64,000 nucleotides of DNA from Halomicrobium zhouii (lineage in GTDB: Archaea > Halobacteriota > Halobacteria > Halobacteriales > Haloarculaceae). The notes beneath the pieces are model-generated. The model was not told the DNA's origin and made no database searches. It saw only the letters and a program-made list of their open reading frames with translations. The translations under genes and the position numbers were made by a program. Position 1 is the stretch's first letter; every line of letters starts with the position of its first letter. This document shows positions 21,247 to 57,345 of the stretch, piece by piece. The DNA lies in the NCBI RefSeq assembly GCF_900114435.1, contig NZ_FOZK01000001.1, forward strand, positions 62,001-126,000. Reading direction: 5' to 3'.

Positions 21247-21372
21247 ACAACAGAGGAAAGCCCCGGCCGGTTCGAGTCCCAGGCCTCGTTGCGCTCCTCG
21301 GCCTTCGGCCTCCGGTGCTTACGTCGGCCGGGTTCCTCGAACCGGCCGCCCCTTTCATTCCCACCCTGGTGG
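21247..21372 (+). repeat. Type I structured intergenic element, copy 1
   Basis: GGAAAGCCCC box at 21255-21264, then stem arm GGCCGGTTCGAG (21265-21276), which is the exact reverse complement of CTCGAACCGGCC at 21336-21347. GTGCTTACG lies at 21315-21323 inside the loop. GCCCCTTTCATTCCCACC closes the element. It lies between the DUF7139-like gene start and the pcn stop. See findings for comparison with the other copies. Confidence 0.8.
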
Positions 21373-27947: not shown

Positions 27948-28064
27948 CGACAGAAGAAAGCCCTCGCCGCGCTGAACTCGCGCGGACCACGCTGCGCGCC
28001 TCACTCCGTTCGGTGCTTACGGGTCCGTGCTTCGTTCAGCCCGGCTCGCCCTTTCAGTCCACCA
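27948..28064 (+). repeat. Type I structured intergenic element, copy 2
   Basis: GAAAGCCC at the left end, stem arms GCTGAAC (27971-27977) and GTTCAGC (28034-28040), GTGCTTACG at 28013-28021, and GCCCTTTCAGTCCACC closing at 28048-28063. The loop is nearly identical to copy 7 (56338-56457) while the stem differs. It lies between the RHH gene start and the TatCt stop. Confidence 0.8.
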
Positions 28065-28138
28065 GGAGATCGGCTGGTCCATCGGCTATCGAAGAATGTA
28101 GTTGAGTAAGGTGAATGTGGTCAAACTCCCTCTCGGCC

Positions 28139-42114: not shown

Positions 42115-42170
42115 CTAGCAGAACTACTGTGTTGATCGGTCGGTGTGGACGGAACTGCTCACCCTTCCGC

Positions 42171-42293
42171 CAACAGAGGAAAGCCCCGGCGTGCTGCGGT
42201 CCCGCGGCTCGCTGCGCCCTTCACTCGCTACGCTCGCTCCAGTGCTTACGTCGCCGGGGTTCCCGCAGCACGCCGCCCCTTTCAGTCCCACCC
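42171..42293 (+). repeat. Type I structured intergenic element, copy 3
   Basis: CAACAGAGGAAAGCCCC at the left, 13-bp perfect stem CGGCGTGCTGCGG (42187-42199) / CCGCAGCACGCCG (42263-42275), GTGCTTACG at 42242-42250, and CCCCTTTCAGTCCCACCC at 42276-42293. It is in the convergent gap after the acyl-CoA dehydrogenase and faces copy 4. Confidence 0.85.
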
Positions 42294-42319
42294 GAGTCAG
42301 CTAATCGGCCTGGAGAAAC

Positions 42320-42438
42320 GGGTGGGACTGAAAGGGGCCGACCGCTCGGGGAAGGTGGGCGCAGTAAGCACCGCAGCGAAGCGAGGAGCGCAGCAAGCCC
42401 CCCGACCCGAGCGGGAGGGGGCTTTCCTTTGTTGTTGG
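42320..42438 (-). repeat. Type I structured intergenic element, copy 4 (inverted)
   Basis: Read on the minus strand: CCAACAACAAAGGAAAGCCCC, stem arms CCGCTCGG / CCGAGCGG, GGTGCTTAC (complement of 42364-42372), GGCCCCTTTCAGTCCCACCC. Head-to-head with copy 3 across 26 nt, so the pair forms a larger interrupted palindrome in the gap before rpap3. Confidence 0.8.
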
Positions 42439-42543
42439 TAGCGCCGTCAGTAGTTTAGTCGCGAACTGATCAACTCAGTCGCTCTCTCGCCCAGAAACCA
42501 CCAGTCACCGACGCCAAAAGAAAAGCCGCGGCGGAGAAGCCTT

Positions 42544-44720: not shown

Positions 44721-44740
44721 GCGGTACAATTGCTAGTGCC

Positions 44741-44784
44741 AGCCTGCCCTTCCCCTGGTCGCGCGATAAAACGCACTCCCGGCC
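44741..44784 (+). repeat. 45-nt dispersed repeat, type IV (copy 1)
   Basis: AGCCTGCCCTTCCCCTGGTC followed by GCGCGATAAAACGCACTCCCGGCC. About 85-90% identical to 56469-56513. It lies just outside type I element copy 5. Confidence 0.6.
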
Positions 44785-44814
44785 ACCGCTATGGCCGAGG
44801 AGAGTAATCAGGCA

Positions 44815-44991
44815 GGGTGGGAATGAAAGGGGCAGCGTGCTCGATGTCTTCGTGAACGGAGTGAGCGAAGGCTCGAAAGACGAGCGAAGCGAGTCTTTCG
44901 GTGAGCGAGACGAAGTAAGGACCGGAGCCGTAGGCGAGGACCGCAGCGAGTCGCAGCCATCGAGCACGCCGGGGCTTTCCTCTCTCATTGG
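44815..44991 (-). repeat. Type I structured intergenic element, copy 5 (inverted, long loop)
   Basis: GGGTGGGAATGAAAGGGG at the left, perfect 11-bp stem CGTGCTCGATG (44836-44846) / CATCGAGCACG (44958-44968), and CCGGGGCTTTCC to the right end. The loop is longer than in other copies and contains extra short hairpins (CGAAAGACGAGCGAAGCGAG region). It lies upstream of the guanylyltransferase gene. Confidence 0.8.
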
Positions 44992-47009: not shown

Positions 47010-47215
47010 ACAACACCCGGAAAGCTCTCGGCGCGCTGAACTCGCGCGAGCAACGCTGCCCCTGGAGTCCTCGTGAGCGAAGCGAACGAGGGCTCGTCAG
47101 AGTGGTTCGAGAGACCGAAGGTCTCTCGTCATCACGAAAGGCGCGGAGCGCCTTTCGAACGACTTGCTCTGACGGTGGACTGAAAGGGCGAGGCCCGGTC
47201 GGGGGCTTTCGAGGC
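47010..47215. repeat. Type I structured intergenic element, copy 6 (composite)
   Basis: The left end reads like the forward boundary (CCGGAAAGCTCTCGGCGCGCTGAACTCG region, close to copy 2), while the right part holds reverse-type boundaries (GTGGACTGAAAGGGCG at 47175-47190 and GGGGGCTTTC near 47200-47210). Nested hairpins (AGAGACCGAAGGTCTCT; AAAGGCGCGGAGCGCCTTT) fill the centre. It looks like two oppositely oriented copies recombined. Confidence 0.6.
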
Positions 47216-50458: not shown

Positions 50459-52018
50459 ATGAGCAACCAGAATCTACGGACAGAGCACGGAGAACAGTCC
50501 CAGCACGGCGAACAATCCCAGCACGGAGAACAGTCCCAATCGGACCAGCAATCCGGCGAACAGATACGACAACGAGTCTCCCCGGAGCAGCTAGCACCGC
50601 AGCAAGCGCCGGCGCAGCCTTCCCTGCACCCCCCGACGCAGCCCCAGCGAGGAGAGCAGTCACTCCAGCCACCTCCGGCGCGTCCGCAGTTTCGGCCGGC
50701 GGGAGGACAGGGACAGCAACTCCTGCAACCCCTGGAATCGAGCGCTATCGACGCCAAGTACGCGGAACTTGGGGGTTCCGACGGCTTCCTGGGCCAGCCG
50801 GTGACCGACGAGCGAGTCACTCCCGACGGCGTCGGCCGCTACCGACACTACGAGAACGGCTCCATCCACTGGCATCCCGACGCGGGCGCCCACGAGACCC
50901 ACGGCTGGATCCGCGAGAAGTGGTCCGAACTCGGCTGGGAACAGAGCTTCCTCGGCTATCCGGTCATCGACGAGAAGAACACGCCTGACGGTGACGGCGA
51001 CTTCCAGCACTTCCAGGGCGGCTCCATCTACTCTCACTCCGGCGGCGCCTTCGAGGTCCACGGGGCGATTCGCGCCAAGTGGGCGAGCTTCGGGTGGGAA
51101 CGGAGCTTCCTCGGCTATCCAGTCACGGACGAGCGAACGACCCCGGACGGTGAGGGACGATACAATCACTTCCAGAACGGGTCGATCTACTGGCACCCGG
51201 ACACCGGCGCCCACGAACTCCACGGCTGGATCCGACAGAAGTGGGCGAGTCTCGGCTGGGAACGAAGCGTCCTCGGCTACCCACTGACGGACGAGAAGAA
51301 CACCCCCGACGGCGAGGGCGACTTTCAGCAGTTCCAGTGGGGCCACATCCACTCCCACGCGTTCACTGGCGCCCACGAGACCCACGGCGCGATCAGGCGA
51401 TTCTGGGCTCAGCAGGGCTGGGAACAGGGGCCACTGGGGTACCCGATGAGCGACGAACTGAGCACGCCCGGTGGCGGCCGGTACTCGATATTCGAGGGCG
51501 GCGTCGTCTACTGGCACCCCGAGAAAGGCGCGCAGATGGCGAACTACCTGCCCGTTCGCGGTTCCAGCATCGTCCAGCAGGTCGACGACGAGGTGGCGAA
51601 GCTCATCGAGGGAACGGCGCTGTTCTACGCGGGCGCCACCGAGATAACCGCGGTCCACCACTGGTACGAGTACGGGGGCACCCGCTACTACCGGGTGCTG
51701 GAGCTAGACTTCGACCTGGAAGCGGCGGTCACGGGCTTCAATCCCAGCGTCGACCTCGACCTGTTCCTCGCGTTCGAGGTGGACGGAGAGGACGTGGTCG
51801 TCACCATCGTCCGGGAGCGCCACCACGTGGACTCGGCGTGGTGGCAGGAGTTGCTCACCCTCGGCTTCCAGGAAATCGTCGACCACACCGTGAGTGAGCG
51901 CTTCGAGAAGAAGATCCAGCGCCAGATCGGCCAGGAGATCTCGATTCCAGCGGGGGTGAATTTGCTGGCCGCCCAGCTACAGGACGACGGTGAGTTGCGA
52001 CTCTACCTGGGTGCCTGA
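50459..52018 (+). CDS. LGFP-repeat protein with Gln-rich N-terminus
   Basis: 519 aa. Residues 1-90 are Gln/Pro/Ser rich with HGEQSQ repeats. Five LGFP repeats of about 53 residues follow (about 97-362), each with a core such as FLGYPVTDE, a TPDG turn, and a GSI-x-WHP segment. Repeats 1/3 and 2/4 resemble each other most, implying duplication of a two-repeat unit. The C-terminal ~150 residues form a distinct domain (VDDEVAKLIEG...). LGFP repeats are typical of actinobacterial cell-wall proteins and are rare in archaea, so transfer is suspected. No signal peptide is visible, which is odd for a surface-type repeat. Confidence 0.8.
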   Translation: MSNQNLRTEHGEQSQHGEQSQHGEQSQSDQQSGEQIRQRVSPEQLAPQQAPAQPSLHPPTQPQRGEQSLQPPPARPQFRPAGGQGQQLLQPLESSAIDAKYAELGGSDGFLGQPVTDERVTPDGVGRYRHYENGSIHWHPDAGAHETHGWIREKWSELGWEQSFLGYPVIDEKNTPDGDGDFQHFQGGSIYSHSGGAFEVHGAIRAKWASFGWERSFLGYPVTDERTTPDGEGRYNHFQNGSIYWHPDTGAHELHGWIRQKWASLGWERSVLGYPLTDEKNTPDGEGDFQQFQWGHIHSHAFTGAHETHGAIRRFWAQQGWEQGPLGYPMSDELSTPGGGRYSIFEGGVVYWHPEKGAQMANYLPVRGSSIVQQVDDEVAKLIEGTALFYAGATEITAVHHWYEYGGTRYYRVLELDFDLEAAVTGFNPSVDLDLFLAFEVDGEDVVVTIVRERHHVDSAWWQELLTLGFQEIVDHTVSERFEKKIQRQIGQEISIPAGVNLLAAQLQDDGELRLYLGA

Positions 52019-55222: not shown

Positions 55223-56293
55223 ATGCTGCTAGTGCTCTGTGTCGACCTCGACGACGACCTCGGCCGGAAGACGGGCGTGGAGACGCCGGTCATCGGCCGG
55301 GACGCCGTCGAGTCGGCCGCCGTCGCACTGGCGGAGACCGACCCGGAGGACTCCGACGTCAACGTCCTCTTCGAGGGCATCCACATCTACGACGAGGTCG
55401 ACGACGAGGCCGTGGAGGTGGCCGCCGTCACCGGCGTCGACGGCAACGACGTCGCGGCCAACCGCGCGGTCGGCGAAGAGGTCGACCAGGTGCTCGCGTC
55501 GCTGTCCTCCGGCGAGGACGTCCGCGCCCTGCTCGTCACCGACGGCGCCCAGGACGAGTCCGTCGTCCCCGTCATCCGCTCGCGCATCCACATCGACGGC
55601 GTCCGCCGCGTCGTCGTCCGCCAGTCCCAGGACCTGGAGTCGATGTACTACACCATCAAACAGGTGCTCGACGACCCCGAGACCCGCGGGACGATTCTGG
55701 TTCCCCTCGGTATCCTCCTGCTGATCTATCCCCTCGCGATCGTCGCCGACAGCCTCGAACTCCCCGGGTCGTCGCTCGGTATCATCTCCGGCCTGCTCGG
55801 CCTCTACATCCTCGCCCGCGGCCTGGGCGCCGAACAGACCCTCGACGCCGCCGTCGAGCGCGTCCGCTCGGGCCTCTTCGGGGGCCGCGTCACGCTCATC
55901 ACCTACGTCGTCGCCGCGGCGCTACTCGTGATCGGCGGCGTCAGCGGCGTCCAGACCCTCGAACAGGCCAACAGGTCCTCGGTGCTGGACGTGCTGGCCG
56001 CGCTCGTCTACGGCTCCATCCAGTGGTTCGCCGCCGCCGGCGTCACCAGCAGCCTCGGCCACGTCACCGACGAGTACCTCGACGGCCGCTTCGAGTGGCG
56101 CTTCCTCAACGCCCCCTTCTACGTCCTCGCCATCGCCGTCGTCCTGCACGGCGTCAGCGCCTACTTCCTGTTCGAGGGAGTGGGCATCTCGTATTTGGCG
56201 ATTACGCTGACCGGCGGGACGTTACTTGGACTGGGAAGTACGCTCGCGTTTGCCGTGGCGGAGACCAGATTTGGGCGTGCCGAGCCTGCTTAG
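55223..56293 (+). CDS. DUF373 family membrane protein
   Basis: 356 aa. The N-terminal ~140 residues are a soluble alpha/beta domain (LLVLCVDLDDDLGRKTGVETPVIGRDA ... ALLVTDGAQDESVVPVIRSR ... VVVRQSQDLESMYYTI) with a Toprim/nucleotide-like feel, followed by seven or so membrane helices (from about 155). This matches archaeal DUF373 proteins, of unknown function, widely conserved. Its stop lies 44 nt upstream of a large palindromic repeat. Confidence 0.82.
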   Translation: MLLVLCVDLDDDLGRKTGVETPVIGRDAVESAAVALAETDPEDSDVNVLFEGIHIYDEVDDEAVEVAAVTGVDGNDVAANRAVGEEVDQVLASLSSGEDVRALLVTDGAQDESVVPVIRSRIHIDGVRRVVVRQSQDLESMYYTIKQVLDDPETRGTILVPLGILLLIYPLAIVADSLELPGSSLGIISGLLGLYILARGLGAEQTLDAAVERVRSGLFGGRVTLITYVVAAALLVIGGVSGVQTLEQANRSSVLDVLAALVYGSIQWFAAAGVTSSLGHVTDEYLDGRFEWRFLNAPFYVLAIAVVLHGVSAYFLFEGVGISYLAITLTGGTLLGLGSTLAFAVAETRFGRAEPA

Positions 56294-56337
56294 AGGAGTT
56301 TTTCCGGTTTGCTCGCTAGCAGTGTTCGGCGACGTCA

Positions 56338-56457
56338 CCAACAAAGGAAAGCCCTCGGCCCGCTCGACTCGCGCGGACCACGCTGCGCGCCTCACTCCGT
56401 TCGGTGCTTGCGGGTCCGTGCTTCGTCGACCGGACATCGCCCTTTCATTCCTCCAGG
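56338..56457 (+). repeat. Type I structured intergenic element, copy 7
   Basis: CCAACAAAGGAAAGCCC at the left; the loop (CGCGCGGACCACGCTGCGCG onward) is almost identical to copy 2, GGTGCTTGCGGG contains the variant internal box, and GCCCTTTCATTCCTCCAGG closes. Stem core CGAC / GTCG differs from copy 2 but remains complementary. Left arm of a ~570 nt palindrome. Confidence 0.75.
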
Positions 56458-56468
56458 TACGGCACCGC

Positions 56469-56513
56469 AGCCCTGCCCTCCCCCTGGTCGCGCGATGAAA
56501 CGCGCTCTCGGCC
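56469..56513 (+). repeat. 45-nt dispersed repeat, type IV (copy 2)
   Basis: AGCCCTGCCCTCCCCCTGGTC-type sequence ending CGCGCGATGAAACGCGCTC; the last 19 nt are perfectly inverted at 56756-56774. First copy at 44741. Confidence 0.6.
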
Positions 56514-56786
56514 GATCGGTTGCGGAGCGGTCACGAAGCGTGTCGCGCCGCGAGGGTGGCGCGTCAGCGCCACCTCACCGCGAACGGCGCCAGCCGTGAG
56601 CAAGGCGCGACCGGGGAGGAGTGGTGTCTTAGCGAGCGGAGCGAGCCAAGGCTCGTCAGAGCTTGCTCTGACGGTGGTCACAATCGCGAGCGCAGGGAGG
56701 CGCCGACCGGAGGGAGGGGCCTCCGAACGAGCGAACGGGGAGCGTAGCGACCCGTGAGCGCGTTTCATCGCGCGAGCGAGGCGGAA

Positions 56787-56909
56787 CCTGGAGGAATGAA
56801 AGGGCGAGGCGGGCTCGTCGGCCCCCCGAGGAAGTAAGCACCGAACGGAGTGAGGCGCGCAGCGACTCGCGGGGTCACGAGCCCGCCGAGGGCTTTCCGC
56901 TGTTGACGG
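56787..56909 (-). repeat. Type I structured intergenic element, copy 8 (inverted)
   Basis: Perfect 11-bp stem GGCGGGCTCGT (56808-56818) / ACGAGCCCGCC (56877-56887), GTAAGCACC (56834-56842) as the inverted internal box, GAGGAATGAAAGGGC at the left and GAGGGCTTTCCGC at the right end. Confidence 0.8.
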
Positions 56910-57045
56910 TCCCGGTTTCGACTGCAGCTTCGACTCCAGCGAACACACAGGTTCTGCTTGAGATACTGACGACTCCAGAAAACGAAATCCATCCGCATAC
57001 TCCAGAGTCGCCACAGTCAAAGCGGGTCGACCAGTAGCCTCGCGC

Positions 57046-57345
57046 ATGCACGTCTCCAGAGCCGTCGCGACGATACGCGACGACCCCGTCCCTGGCGAGG
57101 AGATCGACCTCGTGTTCGAGACCGACCCCGACGCCGACCTGGAGTCGGTCGTCACCCACCTCGAAGCCGCCGGTGCGACCATCGACCGCCACCTCCAGTT
57201 CGACGACTTGCTGGCGACGGTCCGTCACGAGGACGTCGAGGCCGTCTGCCACGTCAGGGGCGTCGACGCGGTCCAGACCGCCGACGCCATCGGGATCCAC
57301 CCCGACGAAGCGGAGGAGGACTTCGAACCGGCCGAGGAGGGATGA
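57046..57345 (+). CDS. Small protein with I9-propeptide-like (ferredoxin-like) fold
   Basis: 99 aa. The central part (ESVVTHLEAAGATIDRHLQFDDLLATVRHEDVEAVCHVRGVDAVQTADA) follows the beta-alpha-beta pattern of subtilisin propeptides/I9 inhibitors, including the final V-x-x-V-x strand; N-terminal strand VSRAVATIRDDP and acidic C-terminus. A free-standing inhibitor or chaperone-like role is conceivable, but the match is by eye only. No protease gene is adjacent. Confidence 0.55.
   Translation: MHVSRAVATIRDDPVPGEEIDLVFETDPDADLESVVTHLEAAGATIDRHLQFDDLLATVRHEDVEAVCHVRGVDAVQTADAIGIHPDEAEEDFEPAEEG

Follow-up and report, generated by a model that had tools for sequence, protein, structure and literature searches.

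The question raised by this locus is what a nested palindrome of ~570 bp, lying between two genes of a haloarchaeal chromosome, represents. The window (the 64,000-nucleotide stretch analysed) comes from the genome of Halomicrobium zhouii (G000; 4.25 Mb in 6 contigs), and a preliminary description had treated the palindrome as a single odd island. The island is real, but it is one copy among dozens per genome, and belongs to a dispersed, intergenic haloarchaeal repeat family rather than being a gene. For comparison, the genome of the sister species, Halobacteria archaeon HArc-gm2 (G006), and that of a congener (G004) were used.

The island and its repeat family

The intergenic interval that holds the element (56294–57045) is flanked by ORFs at 55223–56293 and 57046–57345, both on the forward strand, and the island itself (56338–56909) takes up most of the gap between them, in agreement with the earlier statement that it contains no plausible gene. 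Its plan is that of an arm, a core and an inverted arm (class L). The left arm (56347–56458, forward strand) is a hairpin module of ~112 nt running from an outer motif E (GAAAGCCCTC; 56347–56356, forward) to an inner motif M (56437–56458, forward). The right arm (56786–56897, reverse strand) is the same module inverted, with its E at 56888–56897 and its M, the complement of the left M, at 56786–56807, both on the reverse strand. Covariance model R1 detected the left arm in the window with 118.8 bits (E 5.7e-28) and the right arm with 99.8 bits (E 3.3e-23); what had been called two inverted type I elements are these arms of one family. The core (56459–56785, forward) is hairpin-rich, is inverted relative to the flanks in the sister species, and carries the orientation motif GCAGCCCTGCCCTCCCCCTGGTCG (56467–56490, forward) with one mismatch to the family motif.

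A repeat search of the island returned an outer inverted pair (56339–56366/56878–56905; 28 nt, 86%), the best pair (56381–56409/56836–56864; 29 nt, 100%), a pair at 56424–56468/56776–56820 (45 nt, 78%) and an innermost pair (56488–56511/56752–56775; 24 nt, 96%). A perfect inverted pair does exist within the core, as first described, but its length is 20 nt (56488–56507, forward, with 56756–56775) and not 19 bp. The stretch 56330–56915 folds as DNA at −217.6 kcal/mol, against −151.3 ± 5.0 for shuffled sequences (z −13.2), and as RNA at −377.8 against −285.3 ± 7.0 (z −13.2); none of 100 shuffles was equally stable with either set of energies. The four inverted pairs and the shuffling check, which had been proposed at the outset, bear out the nested palindrome. 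At the gathering score the island had no Rfam match, and the window gave tRNA only. Small GC-rich hairpins, repeated between copies, were seen at 56626–56690 and in other loci (L005, L006, L010 and others), where they sit in the loops of arms or cores as if a hairpin had been inserted into a hairpin. Elsewhere in the window, 15-nt tandem repeats (619–828) and repeats spaced ~162 nt apart (50784–51520) both lie inside ORFs.

Searching G000 with the island sequence gave 153 matches in dozens of places. A common plan was found in 30 compared loci: E (GAAAGCCCTCGG...), ~96 nt, M (CTCGCCCTTTCAKTCC), a variable middle, and then M and E inverted. The arm was accordingly defined as the E-to-M unit, with ends GAAAG...CTTTC and a length of ~112 nt, and a covariance model was built from 53 sequences and 112 positions. 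This model had at least 150 matches in G000 and at least 150 in G006. Among the G000 arms listed, 54 neighbouring pairs lay within 6 kb of each other, and these were arranged head to head (+−) in 48 cases, −+ in four and ++ in two; 42 of the 150 arms listed were unpaired. The inverted doublet is the main arrangement of the arms. The gap between head-to-head arms was 20–44 nt in four pairs (class S) and 151–338 nt in 44 pairs (class L), and 57 distinct class L cores, of 153–329 nt, were collected. Motif E was identical between the two halves in 52 of 65 elements. No earlier description of the arm family was found in the PMC literature, which mostly excludes subscription papers, and the family is apparently described here for the first time.

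The window holds further copies: a class S copy with two inverted arms and a 20-nt gap (42179–42426), single arms at 21256–21369 and 27956–28067 (both forward), and what a deletion has left of a class L copy (47019–47211). A degenerate copy (44740–44979) consists of a core motif and a right arm only, and it accounts for the 45-nt sequence noted earlier beside 'copy 5', which is the core motif near 44740–44785 adjoining the degenerate arm at 44866–44979.

Many class L copies (L010, L014, L022, L026, L027 and others) have extra tandem 51-nt units outside E, each made of E and ~33 nt of flanking sequence. They occur on one side of the element or on both, and are inverted between the sides. Some class S copies (window 42116–42490; G006 C11 near 405200–405800) have longer ends with inverted AACTACTGTGTTGATC-like sequence, which are possibly true terminal repeats. 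The motif CCTGTACTGACC was considered as a cassette or recombination site and rejected, as only 6 and 4 of its 13 and 8 matches are near elements; it is only part of some right ends. It is also repeated at C2:715400–716950 of G000, beside a class L copy, where the two species differ in a small ORF.

The arm as a conserved hairpin on chromosomes and plasmids

Across 148 distinct arms, 93.6% of helix cells could pair, compared with 69.4% after shuffling, a percentage biased upward because the arms had been aligned to the model itself. The covariation score was 0.545, compared with 0.146 for shuffled alignments, and was not reached in any of 500 shuffles or with slid partners (at most 0.106). The arms have therefore diverged in a manner that preserves their pairs. 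In the class L cores, of which 37 of the 57 collected were aligned, hairpins are likewise kept while the sequence changes. The nested inverted pairs of the long dyad do align, but left and right arms are on average only 71% alike (mean identity 0.713 over 65 elements), and a left arm is as similar to right arms taken from other elements (0.733). Because the halves are no more alike than the arms of different elements, the constrained unit is the single arm and not the 570-bp dyad, and the continuous dyad is a by-product of two hairpin modules being placed inverted.

Arms were present in 86 of 116 relatives, 34 of which were arm-rich (at least 15 matches); no more than 32 matches were counted for any one genome. 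In species of one genus (g2) the matches numbered at least 30, 22, 16, 3 and 0, and such wide variation among congeners fits the expectation for a proliferating element. Phage records had no arm match, and no exact motif match was found in viral contigs.

A single arm also occurs on 122 haloarchaeal plasmid records, and in 94 of these its identity with the query arm (L148:6001–6117) reaches 90% or more. In eight plasmids from several genera this arm forms one end of a noncoding region of ~560 nt with long invariant blocks, flanked by a HalOD1 or other gene and by a gene for a protein of ~290 aa; parts of the region were matched by 168 plasmid records, and at least 80% of it was covered in 78. 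Its RNA fold has a z of −5.6, and the five plasmid loci scanned against Rfam had no match. The ~290-aa protein is more variable, with 86, 61 and 51% identity to P0001 in L146, L150 and L147, and weak OB-fold/RPA-like matches turned up, in one library or more, for the four such proteins scanned. Two genes of this OB-fold type occur in G000, at C2:808891 and C2:339479, each with an arm ~470 nt upstream (C2:810168 and C2:340735, respectively). The arm is all that the plasmid region and the chromosomal palindromes have in common. The conserved region was observed in plasmid loci L146–L156, for example at L152:2565–3150 (pJ7-1), and in plasmid PHS2 (L147:6002–8642) it is split by a histidine-kinase gene, with both halves staying conserved. 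The RPA-like protein was rejected as a required partner of the arms, being absent from three arm-rich genomes (G005, G018 and G041), albeit ones that are 81–89% complete. The high identity of the plasmid arm suggests that it may have a conserved function and would not be merely a selfish repeat, which counts against the REPIN-like reading favoured below.

Inheritance, loss and inversion

The context of the elements was determined from gene calls made with a custom ORF scorer. Elements lay outside predicted genes in 72 of 77 cases, and their neighbours were in tandem, convergent or divergent orientation in 38, 20 and 14 cases, respectively. In 902 kb of G000 there were 58 elements, of which 22 had syntenic context in 688 kb of G006, 20 being shared and two absent; conversely, 24 of 48 G006 elements had syntenic context in G000, with 20 shared and four absent. 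These counts overestimate sharing, as many stretches were chosen around elements, a bias that weighs less on the comparison of the complete C5 replicon with C18, which is nearly complete. As 20 syntenic sites are shared and six are one-sided, the copies are mostly vertically inherited at fixed intergenic sites.

At the window site the element is also present in the sister species, and in the congener G004 both flanking genes are there but nearly adjoin. One class S copy found only in the sister is a clean presence/absence difference of 404 bp; no target-site duplication was seen at this one site, and the difference could be a loss and not an insertion. One G000 site retains only the E/E' ends, as a deletion remnant, and two sites lack one arm from the hairpin base. 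Hairpins are thus lost by deletion at their bases.

The elements also invert in situ. At the window site the arms are colinear with those of G006 and the core is reversed, a conclusion that rests on the core motif and the aligned neighbourhood, as whole-core alignment scores (96 vs 87) do not decide the orientation. At 13 class L sites the core could be delimited in both species; its motif had the same direction at 10 of them and the opposite one at three (C2:546834, C5:217266 and the window site). The two class S sites that have both arms and could be compared were each turned round, C5:107765 by alignment and C2:823294 by score (114 vs 227 bits), giving an inverted element or core at five of 15 comparable shared sites. 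The palindrome is an inversion-prone repeat, and the suggestion that it could be a recombination hotspot agrees well with these sites. Since the arms at the window site are colinear while the core is turned, the exchange is placed at M/M'; at C5:107765, where the arms turn too, it is placed at E/E'. These two pairs of repeats would mediate the inversions.

Nature of the element

The element is probably a non-autonomous hairpin repeat similar to REPINs or BIMEs, which has been inherited for a long time and is prone to inversion and deletion. Two inverted hairpin modules, the arms, flank a spacer or core in a high-copy, intergenic repeat. The arms are predicted to fold as DNA hairpins, either in single strands at forks or as cruciforms, and a trans-acting enzyme may once have spread them. 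Inversion would occur by recombination or strand switching, across E/E' for the whole element and across M/M' for the core only, presumably not by a dedicated invertase.

REPIN-like biology is known from bacteria with RAYT transposases. According to PMC3116915, REPINs are high-copy and extragenic, occur mainly as inverted doublets with singlets as remnants, and probably form hairpins in single-stranded DNA, and the arms resemble them in copy number, extragenic position, the occurrence of doublets with singlets and, probably, a hairpin in single-stranded DNA. They differ in their length of ~112 nt, against ~20 bp for the REPIN module, and in their GAAAG/CTTTC ends; the REP module is given in PMC3733652 as ~20–40 bp with a GTAG/CGTC-type foot. 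The family is, moreover, archaeal and has a long structured core, and a RAYT gene (Y1, PF01797) flanked by the repeats was not found in G000. Because no RAYT was found and the arm exceeds the REP module several-fold in length, the element was not filed as a REPIN. No mobilising protein could be tied to the arms, and 12 of the 34 arm-rich genomes lacked any Y1 transposase match. Y1/RAYT was rejected as the mobilising factor, as Y1 was present in 22 of 34 arm-rich and 41 of 82 other genomes (Fisher p 0.16). The Y1 matches of G000 each adjoin a TnpB-like gene (C4:83430, C2:788048 and C2:344621).

Two other groups of elements share some of these features. MITEs and foldback elements are likewise non-coding, dispersed and built of inverted repeats, whereas for the arms the single clean site lacked a target-site duplication, no parental transposon was found, and the conserved feature of the family is the hairpin internal to each arm. 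The attC sites of integrons are imperfect hairpins that retain their structure as their sequence diverges; this holds for the arms too, but they are scattered over the genome and not gathered in cassette arrays.

Whether the arms function as RNA was considered from the strand bias of their non-Watson–Crick cells. Read from E to M, arms mostly of G000 and G006 had 146 A.C and 11 G.U cells, the former being G.U on the outward strand. Counted as pairs, this outward bias was 17 vs 1; it was alike in left (65 vs 3) and right arms (66 vs 3), and after clustering at 80% identity it stood at 63 vs 11 cells. A control with 18 tRNAs gave 382 Watson–Crick and 22 G.U, and is weak as only paired positions were marked. 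Such a bias is what would be given by RNA, or by DNA if just one of its strands folded. The core, however, had 15 G.U and 22 A.C cells, and neither the arms of other genomes (19 vs 25, n = 45) nor the plasmid-type arms (3 vs 5, n = 14) showed a bias, which is confined to the pair G000/G006; the main reading was therefore not built on it. RNA as the main reading, which the bias had suggested, was dropped after these counts, and an RNA role for the element is less likely. The proposal of a long double-stranded RNA is not supported, given that no strand preference holds throughout and that the halves are not kept complementary. It is also doubtful that each arm is a gene for a structured RNA, read from the centre of the element towards the outside and under selection at the RNA level, with the palindrome being two divergent genes; this would explain the outward G.U of left and right arms alike, and a related arm is ultraconserved on plasmids, but the bias is limited as described, Rfam gave nothing but a tRNA for the window, island and plasmid loci, and no promoter was noticed by eye upstream of two solo arms in the window.

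The nearest archaeal description is that of SMR-A (HqIRS42/43/55) and PATE of Haloquadratum walsbyi, compared here by description only. According to PMC3119063, SMR-A measures ~110 bp, its termini are inverted and it makes no target duplication; it targets near-terminal palindromes of PATEs and IS605-type elements, and copies of one SMR type are commonly >95% identical. Both are haloarchaeal, transposase-free, high-copy and palindromic, and the arms, alone or in inverted pairs, fit SMR-A in size and in their ends; the single clean 404-bp site, which may be an insertion or a deletion, has no clear duplication. An SMR-A inserted into both halves of a PATE or IS605-type palindrome, as in Haloquadratum, is nevertheless distinctly improbable, as the arms are far more divergent (~72% identical) and had no visible TnpB/IS605 link: none of the eight TnpB-like genes of G000 lies within 2 kb of the arms listed. 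On this count a TnpB guide RNA or IS605 end was also rejected. Less probable still is a structure that serves the adjacent genes in cis, for example as a terminator working in both directions or as a regulatory cruciform. It would suit very stable hairpins that are near genes and mostly intergenic, but convergent, tandem and divergent settings are all used without clear preference, the element is absent between the same two flanking genes in G004, and the core flips while the flanks stay.

For the REPIN/BIME-like repeat favoured here, the plasmid arm offers a further, tentative reading, which is possible but has the odds against it: the arm may be a structured nucleic-acid module that is used throughout the haloarchaea and has a genuine function. 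On plasmids it would form one end of the ~560-nt region beside the OB-fold (RPA-like) ssDNA-binding protein, a region that may serve as an origin, as a transfer site or as a large RNA, and the chromosomal palindromes would be spread, inverting copies of that module. If this were true, recognition of single-stranded hairpins would link plasmid biology with a chromosome-wide invertible repeat. In any case, as the arm also occurs on conserved plasmid DNA, a recognising protein or RNA can be sought at a definite locus. An archaeal counterpart of REPINs without RAYT would mean that another mobilising system exists. A family with at least 150 hairpin modules per genome and members across Halobacteria appears to be undescribed, and with it the persistence of long palindromes in chromosomes, their loss of hairpins and their inversion can be compared in natural examples.
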